Virus record (IMG/VR): IMGVR_UViG_3300031787_000409
Coordinates: 1-36,133 of that record
Length of the DNA stretch: 36,133 nt
DNA from: a virus
Reading direction: 5' to 3' (one strand)
The notes beneath the pieces were generated by a model, which made no database searches, was not told where the DNA came from, and worked only from the letters and a program-made list of their open reading frames with translations. Of the stretch, positions 5,593 to 27,632 are shown piece after piece; positions within the stretch are counted from its first letter, which is position 1, and every line of letters begins with the position of its first letter. The translations under genes and the position numbers were made by a program.

Positions 5593-6178
5593 TGCAATTT
5601 CGGTTTAACATTGATTTGCTCTTGCCTATGCCAGTAAAATTATACTTACCCATGCAGCAATCACTATCACCTATTACCATGCCCGATGTGTAGTTTGTGC
5701 GCTTGGCAAAGATAGTATCTATATCTGCATTCGGCTGGTTTAAATATAGCGGGTAGGTTGTTTGATTGCTTAATAAAAACTTTGTCAATCTTTCAGCATA
5801 CCATTCGGCTTTGTTTTTCGCCCTGTCTGTTATGTAAGCTATCTCTTCAATACTTGCAGGTGTCATGTTATCTGCATTCTGAACCCCTACGGCTTTATTG
5901 AAGTATTTATAATTCATGTTCATTGGTAACTCGTAACGGCAATACCAAATCATTGTAGGTTGTATATACGTGTCTAGTAAAGTTTGATACGCTGCGCTTA
6001 CTGTACCCGATTGTACTTGACTTACTACGTCATTATAAAGTGACGTGCCTAATATCGGTAATATATAATACTGCTGTACATCGTATATAGTAGGGCTAAC
6101 TACTTTCATGTCTACATTGTCTTGTAGTATGCTTTCAGCCTTTAATGTTGCTTCGCTTAAAAATAATACTTTAGCCAT
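5582..6178 (-). CDS. Head-tail connector/adaptor-like protein
   Basis: 198 residues, largely helical: an N-terminal part (LFLSEATLKAESILQDNVD), then IYDVQQYYILPILGTSLYNDVV, then a helical bundle with YCRYELPMNMNYKYFN. This layout matches the DUF6712-type connector-adaptor proteins of Bacteroidetes phages, the counterpart of HK97 gp6. It would bind the portal and form the joining ring. The gene starts on the stop of the portal gene (shared base at 6178). The Cys-rich C-terminus (DSDCCMG, NRNCNDC) is unusual. Family assignment is from memory of the pattern. Confidence 0.65.
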   Translation of the reverse strand: MAKVLFLSEATLKAESILQDNVDMKVVSPTIYDVQQYYILPILGTSLYNDVVSQVQSGTVSAAYQTLLDTYIQPTMIWYCRYELPMNMNYKYFNKAVGVQNADNMTPASIEEIAYITDRAKNKAEWYAERLTKFLLSNQTTYPLYLNQPNADIDTIFAKRTNYTSGMVIGDSDCCMGKYNFTGIGKSKSMLNRNCNDC

Positions 6179-20274: not shown

Positions 20275-20938
20275 ATTTCAAAGTTAATTTATTTTTAGTT
20301 AAATCCCAAACCTTATTGTGTACCACGTTATAAGTGAATGGTGTTTCAATGGTATGGTTTACAGCATCGGTAACTGGTTGTATGCCTGCGAACATTCCGA
20401 AAGGTATGTCTAAATCATTACAGCAATCGTCAATTAGCAGTGTGTGTGTTGCTAGTGGTGCGTATTCTATTATATCTGACTTGGCTACATCGTATGAGTG
20501 GCCACCGTCTATGTACACAACGTCAAAGTTTTTAAGTGCTTTAACCGCTTGTATTATGTTTGGGTCTGTACTTAAACCTTTAATTATGTTTGGTTGTTTT
20601 AAGCTAAAGTGAGTGTGTAGATACTGGATGTCACTTTCATAATCTGATTCCCAGTGTCCGTCTGTACTGTCTAGTGGTGTAACACCGTATAGTGTGCAGG
20701 TTTTACCAGCTAGTTTTGCAAGTGTCTGTACAAGTGCAAGTGTTTGACCTCTGAATACTCCTATTTCTAAAAGGCTGAAGTGGTTTGGCAGTTTGTCTAC
20801 TATTAGTTTCCACATCCAATAGAATGACCGTTCACCAAACCCAAAAGCGTGCTGCTCTACAAAATCCCTTAATGCTTTTAATTCGGGTACTTTGTTTGTT
20901 TCTTGACAATAATAGTCATGTAATTCTTTATGATTCAT
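20261..20938 (-). CDS. Class I SAM-dependent methyltransferase
   Basis: 225 residues. The Rossmann core shows motif I LLEIGVFRGQT (56-66, SAM binding), NFDVVYIDGGHSYDVAKSD (motif IV region) and ATHTLLIDDCC. This is the Methyltransf_24 type, common in glycan and small-molecule clusters. A GHSYD His-Asp pair could bind metal. It follows three glycosyltransferase genes and overlaps the PLOD-like one by 11 bases, so it probably methylates a sugar (inference). A DNA methyltransferase is unlikely, since no (D/N/S)PP(Y/F) motif is present. Confidence 0.8.
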   Translation of the reverse strand: MNHKELHDYYCQETNKVPELKALRDFVEQHAFGFGERSFYWMWKLIVDKLPNHFSLLEIGVFRGQTLALVQTLAKLAGKTCTLYGVTPLDSTDGHWESDYESDIQYLHTHFSLKQPNIIKGLSTDPNIIQAVKALKNFDVVYIDGGHSYDVAKSDIIEYAPLATHTLLIDDCCNDLDIPFGMFAGIQPVTDAVNHTIETPFTYNVVHNKVWDLTKNKLTLKYANT

Positions 20939-21515
20939 ATCTTGTTAAATCTCCTTTGCCGTTTGCATGAATAAATACTGGTTTAGTTCCTATGTCTGTA
21001 ATAAACCTACCGTCTGCCATGTGTCCGCACGTTTCTAGCATACCGCACGTGTTTTGCACTAATCTTCTTTCGTAGTCTAGTTTTAACTCATACTTCAGCA
21101 CCATGTCTGTCATCCAGCGTTGGTCATCGTCTGAATATTGCGGTGGGTTTTCGTTAAACATTTTCAAATATAATTCTTTATTTAATGAGTAACATCCTGA
21201 ATTAGGGTACTTGTAGTGTGTGTTTGGTTGCGGGAACTGTTGCCACCTGTCTGCATCAGGCCAGCAGTTTATTTCAGTGCCTATTAAATCTTCAGTAACT
21301 TCATCGGGTTTGCCTAGACATATAACATCGTAAGCATCAACAAATACGAACCTATCAATATTGACCTTTTCTAAATATTCTTTTAAGTGTATTAGTTTAG
21401 TTCCAAATCCACGCCAGCTTGCTTTTATAATCTCGTAAGTCCATCCGCAACGCTCAAGTGATTGAACTAGCTTATTGGCTCTTGCTGGGTCATCACACAC
21501 ACTTATTGCTATCAT
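20928..21515 (-). CDS. PLOD/GT25-like glycosyltransferase
   Basis: 195 residues. The fold resembles the glycosyltransferase domain of procollagen lysyl hydroxylase/galactosyltransferase proteins. Metal-binding motif DAYD is at 60-63 (FVFVDAYDVICLG); YPNSGCYSLNKELYLK supplies the acceptor-site loop; SDDDQRWMTDM and the C-terminal PVFIHANGKGD (a second metal-binding His) complete it. Such enzymes transfer hexose from a UDP-sugar. The start overlaps the GT2 gene stop (ATGA). Target unknown: virion glycoprotein or host surface glycan. Confidence 0.8.
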   Translation of the reverse strand: MIAISVCDDPARANKLVQSLERCGWTYEIIKASWRGFGTKLIHLKEYLEKVNIDRFVFVDAYDVICLGKPDEVTEDLIGTEINCWPDADRWQQFPQPNTHYKYPNSGCYSLNKELYLKMFNENPPQYSDDDQRWMTDMVLKYELKLDYERRLVQNTCGMLETCGHMADGRFITDIGTKPVFIHANGKGDLTRYES

Positions 21516-22571: not shown

Positions 22572-22804
22572 ATTCTGTATATTAATCGTTTAAATATTAT
22601 TGCCGAATAAGCACCTATACCTGCCAGTCCTAATCCGTTAAATACAAACTCAAACTGTGGGTAAAAGTGAATGATAATCGAAGCGATTAATACGCTCCAA
22701 AAAGATAAACATACAATGCAGTTGAACGGTTTGAAATTTAACCAGTCTGCAATGGGCGTTAAATGAAAAAACGCAATCCAAATAAAAGCTATTCCTATTA
22801 TCAT
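22568..22804 (-). CDS. Small membrane protein with PFNCxxC motif
   Basis: 78 residues with three hydrophobic segments: about 2-20 (IIGIAFIWIAFFHLTPIA), 34-48 (FWSVLIASIIIHFYP) and 56-72 (NGLGLAGIGAYSAIIF). Between the first two is KPFNCIVCLSFW, a conserved CxxC motif of a small membrane protein family found near sugar-modifying genes in Bacteroidetes and their phages. It could anchor the glycosyltransferases at the inner membrane (inference). It overlaps its neighbours on both sides by 4 bases. Confidence 0.7.
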   Translation of the reverse strand: MIIGIAFIWIAFFHLTPIADWLNFKPFNCIVCLSFWSVLIASIIIHFYPQFEFVFNGLGLAGIGAYSAIIFKRLIYRI

Positions 22805-23859
22805 AATATTGATTGATAAATTTCGTATCGTGTTTGTGCTACTTTATCCATGTGGTAATCCTGTACGTATTCGTAAAGTCTTAATGATAGTTCGTCTATT
22901 CTTGCTGGGTCTTTTATCAACTTAACCATTTGCTTATACCAGTCCTTTTTATGTTTAACAGTCAAACAGTTCCATCCGTACATTATATCTGGTGAGTATG
23001 GGTAAACGTCTGATACTATTACGGCTTTCTTTTTGAACCCTGCTTCAAGTAGTTTAAGGTTTGACTTCATGTTGTTAAATCGGTTATTCCTTAAAGGTAT
23101 CAAAGCCACGTTTATGTAGTCGTAAAAGTTAGCATAACTAAATGGATTGGTCGCTGGGAATGTAGTGAACTGAAAGTCTTTGGCCTTACCCTTGCAACTT
23201 AATACACCTGCTATTGCCTTACTTGTATTGTCTGTATTCTCATAGCCACCATACACCATCCTGAATTTGTGTTCGTAACTGTCATCTGAATATAAAGAGT
23301 ACAACGCCTCATATAATTCAAGTACATCGTCAAAGTGTGTTATCGAACCGCTCCATCCGAAATTAACCTTATCAGTAAAGTGGCATTTTTTAACATCGAA
23401 TTGTCCTTCAGGTTCTATACCGTTTGGTACTATGTATACTTTTTTTTGCCGTGTTTCGTTTAAGATTGTACGTTGTAATAAATCATGTGTAACTGTAACA
23501 CACGCTGCACCGTTTATGCTTTCAATAATTTTAGCTGCGTGTCCTTGCATTTTACTAGCAGCATGGAGTACGTGCCATTCAGGTATTCTGAAGTCATCAT
23601 CTAAATCTAATACATACGGAACTCCCAATACTTTTAACCGCATAATAAGCCCAAACTGGTCACCCATTTTAGATATAAACCTATTGGCTACTATCAAGTC
23701 AAACTGCTGCAAGAAACTATCTTCTGCGCTATCAATCTCGTTTATGTTTGATACTTCCACGCTTGGGTTGTTTTTACCTATGTTTCCATGCGGTATTACA
23801 AGCCTGTGATAGTCTACACCTGATGGTTTGGGATGCTGGCTAATTATTAATATTCTCAT
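22801..23859 (-). CDS. Glycosyltransferase family 4 (GT-B fold)
   Basis: 352 residues. N-terminal Rossmann domain: MRILIISQHPKPSGVDYHRL. Interdomain segment: VYIVPNGIEPEG. Donor domain: VNFGWSGSITHFDDV, VALIPLRNNRFNNMKSNLKLLEAG (sugar-nucleotide site with the ExxxxG-type KLLEAG) and IMYGWNCLTV. This is the standard group 1/GT4 layout, retaining mechanism, NDP-sugar donor. It starts inside the end of the sigma-like gene (20-base overlap) and leads the glycosylation series. Confidence 0.85.
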   Translation of the reverse strand: MRILIISQHPKPSGVDYHRLVIPHGNIGKNNPSVEVSNINEIDSAEDSFLQQFDLIVANRFISKMGDQFGLIMRLKVLGVPYVLDLDDDFRIPEWHVLHAASKMQGHAAKIIESINGAACVTVTHDLLQRTILNETRQKKVYIVPNGIEPEGQFDVKKCHFTDKVNFGWSGSITHFDDVLELYEALYSLYSDDSYEHKFRMVYGGYENTDNTSKAIAGVLSCKGKAKDFQFTTFPATNPFSYANFYDYINVALIPLRNNRFNNMKSNLKLLEAGFKKKAVIVSDVYPYSPDIMYGWNCLTVKHKKDWYKQMVKLIKDPARIDELSLRLYEYVQDYHMDKVAQTRYEIYQSIL

Positions 23860-25298: not shown

Positions 25299-25580
25299 GC
25301 ATAACTAATATTTCGGCACTTACTTTTATTCGCTGCCAAATTTTAGTCAATAACAAACACACACCCGTCAATATGCAGCGTTATTAGCTTACCGTTTTTT
25401 ATGCGCTTGTAAACGCTCTGTACACTCACACCTTTACTCTTTGCGTAGGTCGATATGGTTACAGGTTTAAAGTGTTCAACCGCATCGTATAGACGGTTTA
25501 AATCATTCAACCCGTACACAATTTCATCTGCCTGTATTTCAATGTGTTTATTCATAGGTGCAGGAAGCGAGTAGTTATGC
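25299..25580. repeat. Inverted repeat arms flanking a small HTH gene (attC-like ends)
   Basis: GCATAACTA at 25299-25307 and its exact complement TAGTTATGC at 25572-25580 enclose the 70-residue HTH gene. Similarity continues weakly inwards (TTTCGGCAC against the complement of GTGCAGGAAG). The outer bases GTTATGCGTA at 25574-25583 pair with the CTACGCATAAC end of site C. Whether this is a diverged attC site with a gene inside or a separate element is open. Confidence 0.5.
25343..25555 (-). CDS. Small helix-turn-helix protein
   Basis: 70 residues from an ATG at 25555. A longer in-frame reading upstream would overlap the 105-residue gene, so I prefer this start. The core VTISTYAKSKGVSVQSVYKRIKNGKLITL is a MerR/excisionase-type helix-turn-helix with wing, ending in ITLHIDGCVFVID. 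It probably binds DNA as a small regulator or recombination directionality factor. It sits between the two arms of an inverted repeat with attC-like sequence. Confidence 0.65.
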   Translation of the reverse strand: MNKHIEIQADEIVYGLNDLNRLYDAVEHFKPVTISTYAKSKGVSVQSVYKRIKNGKLITLHIDGCVFVID

Positions 25581-25892
25581 GTAATTTTGGTCAGCATCTC
25601 GGTAATTAAACAAAAACTTGACAAGTTCCTCAAACTTTTGCTTATTGACAATTAGTGTCTGGCCTGCATCGCTTACAATCAAATCATTGTATATTTTCTC
25701 AAACTTTTTACGCTTTATAAAGCTATCAACCATTTGCCTTTCACAATGTAAATCACCACTCCACATTTCGGCAGTTTTATACTCTAATGCTACTTCACGT
25801 GCAAATTCAGCCACTAATTCCTTTGTCCAATAAAAGTATGGTTCTTTGTGAATGTCATCACAAGTTTTTGTTTTTTCTTCTTCGTTTGTCAT
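25575..25892 (-). CDS. Orphan cassette protein, 105 residues
   Basis: Acidic N-terminus (TNEEEKTKTCDDIHKEPYFYW), then helices (KELVAEFAREVALEYKTAE, MVDSFIKRKKFEKIYNDL) and VNKQKFEELVKFLFNY. No known motif. Its stop codon TAA is part of the TACGCATAAC repeat end. It occupies one unit of the attC-like array: bounded by GTTATGCGTA on the left and CTACGCATAAC on the right, which are complementary. It behaves as a single-gene cassette. Confidence 0.65.
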   Translation of the reverse strand: MTNEEEKTKTCDDIHKEPYFYWTKELVAEFAREVALEYKTAEMWSGDLHCERQMVDSFIKRKKFEKIYNDLIVSDAGQTLIVNKQKFEELVKFLFNYRDADQNYA

Positions 25893-25924
25893 TTTATTGT
25901 TATTTAAAATTTATTAATAAAAAA

Positions 25925-26023
25925 CTACGCATAACAGCGGTTTGGCAAAAGCTGCCAGAAAGTTTTGTGCGAAAATTAAGCATCCGTTAGGCAGCCTTCG
26001 TCAAGCCGCCAAACGTTATCGGC
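25925..26023. repeat. attC-like site C
   Basis: 99 bp. Outer boxes CTACGCATAAC and GTTATCGGC; inner imperfect arms GCGGTTTGGC / GCCGCCAAAC and AAAGCTGCC / GGCAGCCTT; AT-rich centre with TTTGTGCG. Size and R/L-box-like layout match integron attC sites (usually about 57-141 bp). The left box pairs with the left end of the 105-residue unit; the right box pairs with the left box of site B. Confidence 0.6.
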
Positions 26024-26027
26024 AAGG

Positions 26028-26291
26028 CTAATAACCATCACCGACAAATACTTTATCAATGTCAATTCCAAAGTATTCGCAAAGGTCATTCATCCATATT
26101 GCAACATAACCGTTCAATAAACGAATGACAAGACCACCATCATCAGCATTGTAGTCTTTGACCAGTTTACAAAAATCTTCCAACTGAAAAACGTATGGGA
26201 AAATTAAAATGTCTGGCGTACCTTCATTGTCTTGTCTGTGCCACTCAATGGAATTGTCATTGATAAATTTGTAAAGTTCTAATTCTGTCAT
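26028..26291 (-). CDS. Orphan cassette protein, 87 residues
   Basis: 87 residues, acidic. It contains TELELYKFINDNSIEWHRQD, ILIFPYVFQLEDFCKLVKDY, GGLVIRLLNGYVAIWM and CEYFGIDIDKVF, predicting a compact alpha/beta fold. I recognise this as a type of small protein often found in accessory regions of Bacteroidetes, with no known function. The stop lies 5 bases before site C and the start 26 bases after site B, so the gene is framed as a cassette. The ends of the unit, GTTATCGGC and GCCGATAAC, are exact complements. Confidence 0.65.
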   Translation of the reverse strand: MTELELYKFINDNSIEWHRQDNEGTPDILIFPYVFQLEDFCKLVKDYNADDGGLVIRLLNGYVAIWMNDLCEYFGIDIDKVFVGDGY

Positions 26292-26316
26292 TTTGATTAA
26301 AATTTGCAGAAGCCCA

Positions 26317-26451
26317 GCCGATAACAGCCATTTTGCGTAATGGCAGGTAACGTGCTTGCTTCAAGGTTTGTAATTCTATTTAACATTTGTGCTTGTTTGA
26401 AAATTTGTGCATCTAATCTGCCACTACGCAAAGTGGCAAAACGTTATGGGC
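26317..26451. repeat. attC-like site B
   Basis: 135 bp. Outer boxes GCCGATAAC and GTTATGGGC; inner arms CCATTTTGCGTAATGGCAG / CTGCCACTACGCAAAGTGG pair over about 19 positions with few mismatches; the centre has repeated TTTGTGC words. It begins after the 87-residue gene start and ends 4 bases before the stop of the methyltransferase gene. Confidence 0.65.
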
Positions 26452-26455
26452 AATA

Positions 26456-27409
26456 CTACGACACTGCAAACAATGACGGTTGTGCCTTGATATTATCAGT
26501 TCGTTTGTTTCCATAATTTACGTGTTTTTCGTTTATTTCAAATCCTATAAAGTTTCTATTTTCTTTTATTGCCATTGCACACTCTGTTCCACTTCCAGCA
26601 AAAGGAACTAAAATAAGGTCGTTTGGTCTGCTACTTATTAGTATTATTTCCCTTGTTAGTTTTTCAGGTTTTGGCGTGTCGTGTTCGTGGTTTCCAGTTT
26701 CATAGTTTGGTATTCTAATCACATCACCATAAAAGCGTTCATTATTAAACGGTCTGCGTAGCACTTCATATTCCTTGCGTAGCACTTCATATTCCTTGCG
26801 TAAATAAGGATAGCACCACTTTTGCAACTTTTCATACATTTCTTTTGTTAGCATCGTTGGTTCTGCTTTATCTAAACTCAAACAAGCCGAAGCAACACCA
26901 CCGCCATTTGTTGCAGTTCCTAAAGCTTCATTTACTTCTTTCAATACTATTTTGCCTTTTGCCTTTGTTATTTCTGCTCTGATATAATCCCTAATATGAT
27001 AAACACATTGCGTTAAATTATACGTTTCATTGCTATACATCAGTAATCTTTCAGTAAGTGGTGCAAAGGTTCGCAAATCGGTATTAAATCGTATTTGTTG
27101 CTTATGGTCGTTTGTATTTTCCCATACTAAACTATTCAATAGATTAAAATGCTTATCAAAAATGATTTGAGCATAAGCAATATTTTTAGCATCTCCATAC
27201 CAATAAAGCGTTCCATTGTCTGCTAAAACTCTTTTACATTCTATTGCCCAGCGTTCTACATCAGCAAGGTAATCGTCAAAGGTTTTCCAAACAAAGTCAA
27301 AATCTCCTTTTACTTTGTAATATGGTGGGTCTGCAATAATCAACTGAACCGATTTATCAGCAAGTTTATTATTCATCCAGTCATCGTGATATATTTTGTT
27401 TACTTCCAT
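26456..27409 (-). CDS. DNA methyltransferase, N6-adenine/N4-cytosine type (beta class order)
   Basis: 317 residues from the ATG at 27409; a longer TTG reading would start inside repeat site A. Motif IV DPPY lies near the N-terminus (VQLIIADPPYYKV). Motif I FAGSGTE lies near the C-terminus (LILVPFAGSGTECAMAI), preceded by PEKLTREIIL (motif X-like). This IV-TRD-I order is the beta class of amino-methyltransferases. It would methylate phage or host DNA, possibly to evade restriction. No restriction gene is near. It carries a 7-residue tandem duplication. It occupies one attC-like unit. Confidence 0.85.
   Translation of the reverse strand: MEVNKIYHDDWMNNKLADKSVQLIIADPPYYKVKGDFDFVWKTFDDYLADVERWAIECKRVLADNGTLYWYGDAKNIAYAQIIFDKHFNLLNSLVWENTNDHKQQIRFNTDLRTFAPLTERLLMYSNETYNLTQCVYHIRDYIRAEITKAKGKIVLKEVNEALGTATNGGGVASACLSLDKAEPTMLTKEMYEKLQKWCYPYLRKEYEVLRKEYEVLRRPFNNERFYGDVIRIPNYETGNHEHDTPKPEKLTREIILISSRPNDLILVPFAGSGTECAMAIKENRNFIGFEINEKHVNYGNKRTDNIKAQPSLFAVS
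26755..26802 (-). repeat. 21-bp tandem repeat in the methyltransferase gene
   Basis: Two perfect copies of a 21-bp unit (26755-26775 and 26776-26796) plus 6 bases of a third. It encodes KEYEVLR twice, in frame. Perfect identity suggests a recent slippage or duplication, in the section expected to hold target recognition. Confidence 0.85.
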
Positions 27410-27437
27410 TTTAAAATCTCGTGTTAAATACCGTACT

Positions 27438-27570
27438 GCCCATAACAAGGGTTTTGCAAAAGCAGGGCATTAGTGGTTTATTGAACATTTGTGCTAATAT
27501 TAAACATTGTGCTATATTTGAACTTTCGTGCCTTGAAGCCCTGCCTTCGCAAAGCCCCGAAACGTTATAC
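27438..27570. repeat. attC-like site A
   Basis: 133 bp. Outer boxes GCCCATAAC and GTTATACC; inner arms GGGTTTTGCAAAAGCAGGGC and GCCCTGCCTTCGCAAAGCC pair imperfectly; the centre again has ATTTGTGC words. The left box, extended as GTACTGCCCATAAC, is complementary to GTTATGGGCAATAC after site B at 13 of 14 positions. Confidence 0.65.
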
Positions 27571-27632
27571 CATATCGGGTGTAAATACTGTTAATCAATG
27601 CCATATAATACCTTATAGGGTATAAACCAATG

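Follow-up and report, generated by a model that had tools for sequence, protein, structure and literature searches.

A probable array of integron-type cassettes with reversed genes in a phage genome

Introduction

Can a phage genome carry gene cassettes of the integron type, each gene reversed relative to its recombination site, and which enzyme would move them? This question is raised by a region of the window, a 36,133-nucleotide stretch of DNA (IMG/VR record IMGVR_UViG_3300031787_000409) that was analyzed at its full length. It is classed in the database as a virus record, and its phage identity is given by the encoded terminase, NinG and primase/helicase-like protein. An earlier note had described single genes separated by three inverted repeats and had read them as integron-type cassettes cut within GTT, with reversed genes, in a CALIN-like or new phage-borne system. 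The sites, the joints and the host family described below support that reading. With fairly high confidence, we consider the region to be a three-cassette array of an integron-type gene-capture system that is served by a host integrase.

Structure of the array in the window

Cassette 1 (25575..26015) contains the 105-residue orphan gene (25575..25892, minus strand) and site 1, and starts with the TT that follows the cut and ends with the G that precedes the next TT. Its limits were set from the ORF and from the complementary ends GTTATGCGTA at 25574 and TACGCATAAC at 25926; the stop codon of the gene is the TAA of the boundary TAAC. Pfam and PHROG searches gave no match for the orphan protein. 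Cassette 2 (26016..26443) was delimited by the complementary ends GTTATCGGC at 26015 and GCCGATAAC at 26317, and contains the 87-residue gene (26028..26291, minus strand; PHROG 37287, function unknown) and site 2. Cassette 3 (26444..27564), with the ends GTTATGGGCAATAC at 26443 and GTACTGCCCATAAC at 27433, contains a DNA methyltransferase gene (N6_N4_Mtase; 26456..27448, minus strand; PF01555, E 4.1e-38) and site 3, and the whole unit occurs at ~95% identity in an unrelated phage contig. The methyltransferase probably starts at the ATG at 27409, 33 nt after the site.

All three attC-like sites lie on the minus strand: site 1 (25932..26018, 87 bp), which reads TAACG...TGTTA on that strand, site 2 (26322..26446, 125 bp) and site 3 (27443..27567, 125 bp), which stands 5' of the gene it travels with. 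Each of the three repeats in the earlier note is such a site, although its coordinates had included flanks and the core sites are narrower. The orientation that it had given, with genes on the minus strand and sites reading TAACA...CGTTA on the plus strand, was confirmed. The TAACG...TGTTA strand is what we take to be the canonical attC bottom strand, as in Vibrio and class 1 sites. If accepted as attC, the three sites agree with the definition of a CALIN (at least two attC sites and no integrase).

The six end strings quoted earlier are all present in the window, and the claimed complementarity between the two ends of each unit also holds among viral and host units, where a unit's own ends agree at 5.6-6.3 of the 8 bases beyond GTTA and mismatched ends at 2.7-3.0. 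As a background, 9 of 1406 GTTA...TAAC pairs spaced 200-1200 bp apart in the window extend by at least 4 complementary bases. Strict GTTRRRY boxes are rare (11/164 viral sites, 11/165 host sites), and GTTR boxes occur in 159/164 viral and 163/165 host sites.

The array anchor, an attI-like insertion end, was placed at 25550..25574, because the first cassette starts at 25574 and the position is equivalent to that of the anchor in Flavobacterium phages (see below). It ends in the G of G/TTATGCG, where the slash marks the cut, and its left limit is a guess. Both the anchor and the host of the window phage are inferred. Among the relatives searched for an empty version of the window phage, no clean empty site was found; one record (L162) ends too early and another (L164) is without the conserved flanks. 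In a further relative (L163), whose helicase is 56% identical, an attC-like site lies at 5792-5877, just downstream of the same helicase region; its stem was detected by our own stem finder and was missed by the R1 model described below. The array location may thus be common to both phages.

Several other features were observed. The 87-residue gene contains a 19-nt inverted repeat (26052-26070 and 26249-26267, 95% complementary), and repeats lie in the loops of sites 2 and 3 (26377-26410 and 27479-27512). The plus strand of site 3 includes TTTG-N21-TATATTTG, similar to a Bacteroidota promoter pointing away from the gene. The methyltransferase gene carries a perfect 21-bp tandem duplication (26755-26796). 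Elsewhere in the window, two glycosyltransferase-like phage genes are located at 20928-21515 and 22801-23859 (PLOD GT domain; phrog_7162). An Rfam search of the window at gathering thresholds gave no match.

Site family and covariance models

The covariance search was run over the whole window with R2, a model made from Bacteroidota chromosome sites only and containing no window sequence. Its training sites had been gathered with the earlier model R1, which was built from viral sites including the three of the window, and the two models are therefore not wholly unrelated; the E-values of both are rough. R2 found exactly three sites in the window: site 3 at 115.2 bits (E 1.7e-27), site 2 at 104.7 bits (E 9e-25) and site 1 at 60.2 bits (E 2.6e-13). 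The next-best matches scored 21.2 bits (site 3 on the opposite strand) and 18.9 bits. In the viral alignment, compensatory changes were present in 16 of the 17 stem pairs. Folding of single sites is weak evidence, and for site 3 single-strand folding gave a z of -0.82. All of the sites belong to a single family whose stem covaries, and arrays of this kind are present in many phages of Bacteroidota.

Gene polarity and leader role of the sites

The gene was located on the TAACG...TGTTA strand in 32/33 viral units from loci picked by methyltransferase and in 115/116 picked by site pattern only, whereas it was located on the opposite strand in 42/46 and 41/46 bacterial units. ORFs were called mechanically, as the longest ATG ORF, and there is slight overlap between the two viral sets and between the two host sets. 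In bacteria the cassettes are canonical; in phages they are inverted, and the attC-like site occupies the 5' end of the gene. The reversed polarity pointed out earlier for the window is therefore the rule in phages (147/149 units).

Among the host exceptions, those in L191 resemble spurious ORFs, and others carry phage-type genes, namely a methylase in L177 and one gene in L077. The methylase case is a chromosomal array of Pedobacter sp. BS3 (L177:16832-18039) with two phage-polarity units, one of which has a 181-residue NPPY methylase-like gene. These units are perhaps phage cassettes captured by the host.

The longest ORF begins within the site and crosses its 3' arm in 59 of 148 distinct viral units; in a control with sites swapped between units, the ORF start fell within the site in 22.2% (sd 2.5%). 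This comparison of reading frames suggests that the sites often supply the start of the gene.

Movement of the methyltransferase unit between unrelated phages

A protein search with the methyltransferase gave 40 viral loci, each of which was aligned to the whole window. Their similarity to the window is confined to the array region and amounts in practice to the methyltransferase cassette. One locus (L002) gave a blastn block at 26442-27575 with 94.8% identity that covers the gene and site 3 and nothing else. In four others (L015, L017, L019 and L028), the identity of the outer blocks is ~88-95%, and they too end at the joints. The site upstream of the methyltransferase is conserved with the gene, and the downstream sites are mostly different. 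Unrelated phages thus carry this unit at ~95% DNA identity, and the matches end at the GTTA joints. Judging from these alignments, units evidently move whole between unrelated phages.

The middle of the methyltransferase is itself exchangeable. Six relatives (L015, L017, L018, L019, L024 and L025) are 10-37% identical in residues ~143-215 (26774-27027) and 93-100% identical outside residues ~121-240. The exchanged middle is presumably the target-recognition part. A search of 296 Bacteroidota genomes with the methyltransferase protein, performed without a positive control, gave no match.

The cargo, which is rich in DNA methyltransferases, was surveyed in 115 ORFs from pattern-selected viral units, with families that may overlap in one protein. 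The matches included N6_N4_Mtase (10), C5 DNA_methylase (4), MT-A70 (2) and MethyltransfD12 (1), and single matches included the Acb2/Tad1 hairpin domain, Rad52 and endonuclease VII. Methyltransferases, small proteins and an Acb2-like protein as cargo suggest swappable counter-defence.

Cassette exchange in Flavobacterium phages

The Flavobacterium phages from strains LMO6 and LMO9 are virulent (Nilsson et al. 2020, PMC7077304), and their plating differences were reported to track one methyltransferase; the word "integron" does not occur in the main text of that paper. These phages have a common backbone, in which the arrays start behind a fixed anchor (...ATTTTTTATCATGTAATATTGTA/GTTA). When 18 of them were split at the sites, 37 different cassettes were obtained and 214/214 boundaries fell at G/TT, a count that is partly derived from the model, as cuts were set at modelled site ends. 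Independently of the model, neighbouring cassettes change between phages at these cut points. As in attI, the anchor is fixed and is followed by at least 8 different first cassettes.

The clearest case is cassette U (439 bp), which is at position 8 in lillamy9-1, beside the anchor at position 1 in lillamy9-3 and lillamy9-7, and absent in snork6-1 and snork6-2. The genomes of lillamy9-1 and lillamy9-3 are of equal length (38268 bp). Around both places of the cassette, the blocks are 100% identical and the joints share only a few bases (GTTAT). The comparison of relatives with and without a unit, which the earlier note had proposed, therefore gave joints exactly at G/TT. Site-specific excision and insertion explain cassette U, and homologous recombination does not. 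Across these genomes, loss, gain and translocation of units behind the fixed anchor have taken place precisely at the sites.

Bacterial hosts and the candidate recombinase

The search for the same repeat family and an integrase, proposed in the earlier note for host genomes, located both in Bacteroidota. The site pattern matched at least 120 stretches of bacterial DNA, the majority of them in Bacteroidota. All 16 Bacteroidota genomes chosen for matching this pattern have sites, some as one-strand arrays of tens of kilobases, and of 198 sampled Bacteroidota genomes, 89 carry sites with E-values of 1e-5 or below. No site was present in any of 15 non-Bacteroidota genomes preselected by a short-pattern match. 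Arrays of this site family were also observed in Riemerella anatipestifer CCUG25054 (L135, L141).

An IntI-like tyrosine recombinase ending in SPLD is located within 5 kb of a site in 13/26 cases, compared to 3/68 for other tyrosine recombinases (Fisher p 1.2e-6), in a test that covers only listed sites and recombinases and uses a class that we defined from the C-terminal match. For the other half of these IntI-like enzymes, none of the listed sites lies close by. Where both could be placed, the integrase stands at the array end corresponding to attI. One host enzyme (L168) aligns with the Vibrio integrase 2a3v, leaving out chain residues 199-248, the region of the IntI additional domain, which is missing from it, and the top host recombinase matches are all split across the same gap of the IntI model. 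The additional domain is reported to be IntI-defining and necessary for IntI activity (PMC9668308). The same enzyme scored 208.5 bits with NF040815 (cut-off 220) and 202.2 bits with TIGR02249 (cut-off 265). According to IntegronFinder 2.0, a complete integron in Bacteroidetes proper is found only in Salinibacter ruber (PMC9024848).

On the phage side, the IntI model and PF00589 both found nothing in the window, in agreement with the earlier statement that it has no IntI gene. The IntI model gave no match in 15 phage records. Furthermore, PF00589 gave none in 30 array-bearing phage records, including the window and the complete lillamy9-1 genome, where viral records may be fragments; the enzyme is therefore probably the host's. 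We infer that a host enzyme probably acts in trans on the phage cassettes.

Discussion

In the proposed mechanism, each unit would consist of one gene and one structured attC-like site, and would be cut and joined at G/TT. The folded gene strand, the equivalent of the canonical attC bottom strand, would be the substrate, in trans, of an IntI-like integrase of the Bacteroidota host that is without the additional domain. Excision would occur between two sites, with re-insertion chiefly at the anchor. Since the genes are directed toward this end, an inserted gene would be added to the phage operon on its promoter-distal side, as predicted from gene direction, and the older genes would be left undisturbed. 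The 5' site would double as the leader, and often as the translation start, of its gene. Several findings count against this reading, namely that the host integrase is without a domain held necessary for IntI activity (PMC9668308), that strict GTTRRRY boxes are rare, that half of the IntI-like enzymes are not close to any listed site and that no empty version of the window phage was found among the relatives searched.

An ordinary CALIN, in which normal attC cassettes were taken from host integrons, canonical IntI is the enzyme and the reversal is a chance or local effect, would account for the attC-like site polarity and geometry. Phage CALINs with methyltransferases are known, and 5/6 tested sites worked with IntI1 (PMC9892861). 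However, the same site model gives 147/149 inverted units in phages versus 83/92 canonical units in bacteria, and the recombinases adjoining host arrays are without the IntI additional domain, which makes this explanation rather improbable. A phage-encoded recombinase outside the tyrosine recombinase family could move the cassettes instead, since these phages have no PF00589 protein and many genes of unknown function; it is considered unlikely, as the phage sites and the host sites near the IntI-like enzyme form one family.

Homologous recombination of the usual kind between phages, in which conserved hairpins would act merely as homologous joints, would fit the evident mosaicism of the phage genomes; some exchanges beyond the array are indeed of this type (33 mismatches between lillamy9-1 and lillamy9-3 over their first 2 kb). 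It does not fit cassette U at two non-homologous places, with identical surroundings and only GTTAT shared at the joints, nor cassette sites whose sequences differ among themselves. Exact translocation refutes it for cassette U, and as a general account it is very unlikely. If the hairpins were intrinsic terminators or dispersed palindromes with no role in mobility, their intergenic location directly after stop codons would be explained. Such elements were ruled out by mobility at exact ends; the fixed TAACG...TGTTA ends, the modal length near 125 bp, the long one-strand chromosomal arrays, the hairpins that travel with their genes and the reading frames that pass through them make this the least credible of the explanations.

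Beyond the window, we give somewhat better than an even chance to a wider reading, in which Bacteroidota and phages would share an integron-like system whose integrase is without the IntI additional domain. Phages would have their own pool of inverted cassettes, with the hairpin as 5' leader or start region, and the host enzyme would append counter-defence genes to the operon tail. These results show integron-type shuffling at work in virulent phages, and a recombinase appears to do the integron's job without a domain held essential. They also offer a mechanism for the gain and loss of counter-restriction genes as interchangeable units in phages.

Comparison with known systems

Phage attC clusters are already known (Qi et al. 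2023, PMC9892861). As far as the accessible text of that report goes, its phage CALINs (e.g., Polaribacter phage P12002L) are integrase-free attC clusters in virulent phages with methyltransferase cargo, as here, but are unlike the present system in its system-wide inversion, start codons in sites, natural translocation between isolates and Bacteroidota partner. P12002L gave no match with the R1 model. In open-licence PubMed Central, preprints excluded, no description was found of inverted phage-cassette polarity, natural shuffling between isolates or a Bacteroidota partner without the additional domain. The host enzyme falls in the integron-like subgroup of simple tyrosine recombinases (PMC8138268) and in NF040815 'tyrosine recombinase/integron integrase'; unlike the host enzyme here, that subgroup is without a described cassette-array partner in the portion of the source consulted.

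In Riemerella anatipestifer, aph(3')-IVb with a 140-bp attC-like 3' hairpin integrates without homology (PMC13148043). The attC-like hairpin with a gene resembles our units, and Riemerella carries arrays of this family. Unlike in the phage units, the polarity there is canonical, with the hairpin at the 3' end, and the mechanism was left open. A concrete enzyme and site are now offered for homology-free gene uptake in Riemerella and relatives, and the host side is therefore testable.

Compared to the integron cassettes of class 1, Vibrio and the IntI family, the system has in common one gene per unit, a structured site, complementary unit ends, the G/TT cut, a fixed insertion end, shuffling and the array polarity TAACA...CGTTA on the top strand. 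It differs in the inverted phage gene orientation with the site at the 5' end, the absence of an integrase from the phage element, the host integrase without the IntI additional domain, and boxes that are GTTR rather than strict GTTRRRY. Its function is integron-like, and by definition it departs from the integron in two features of IntI (the additional domain and an integrase beside the phage array) and in one of the cassette (gene then attC).
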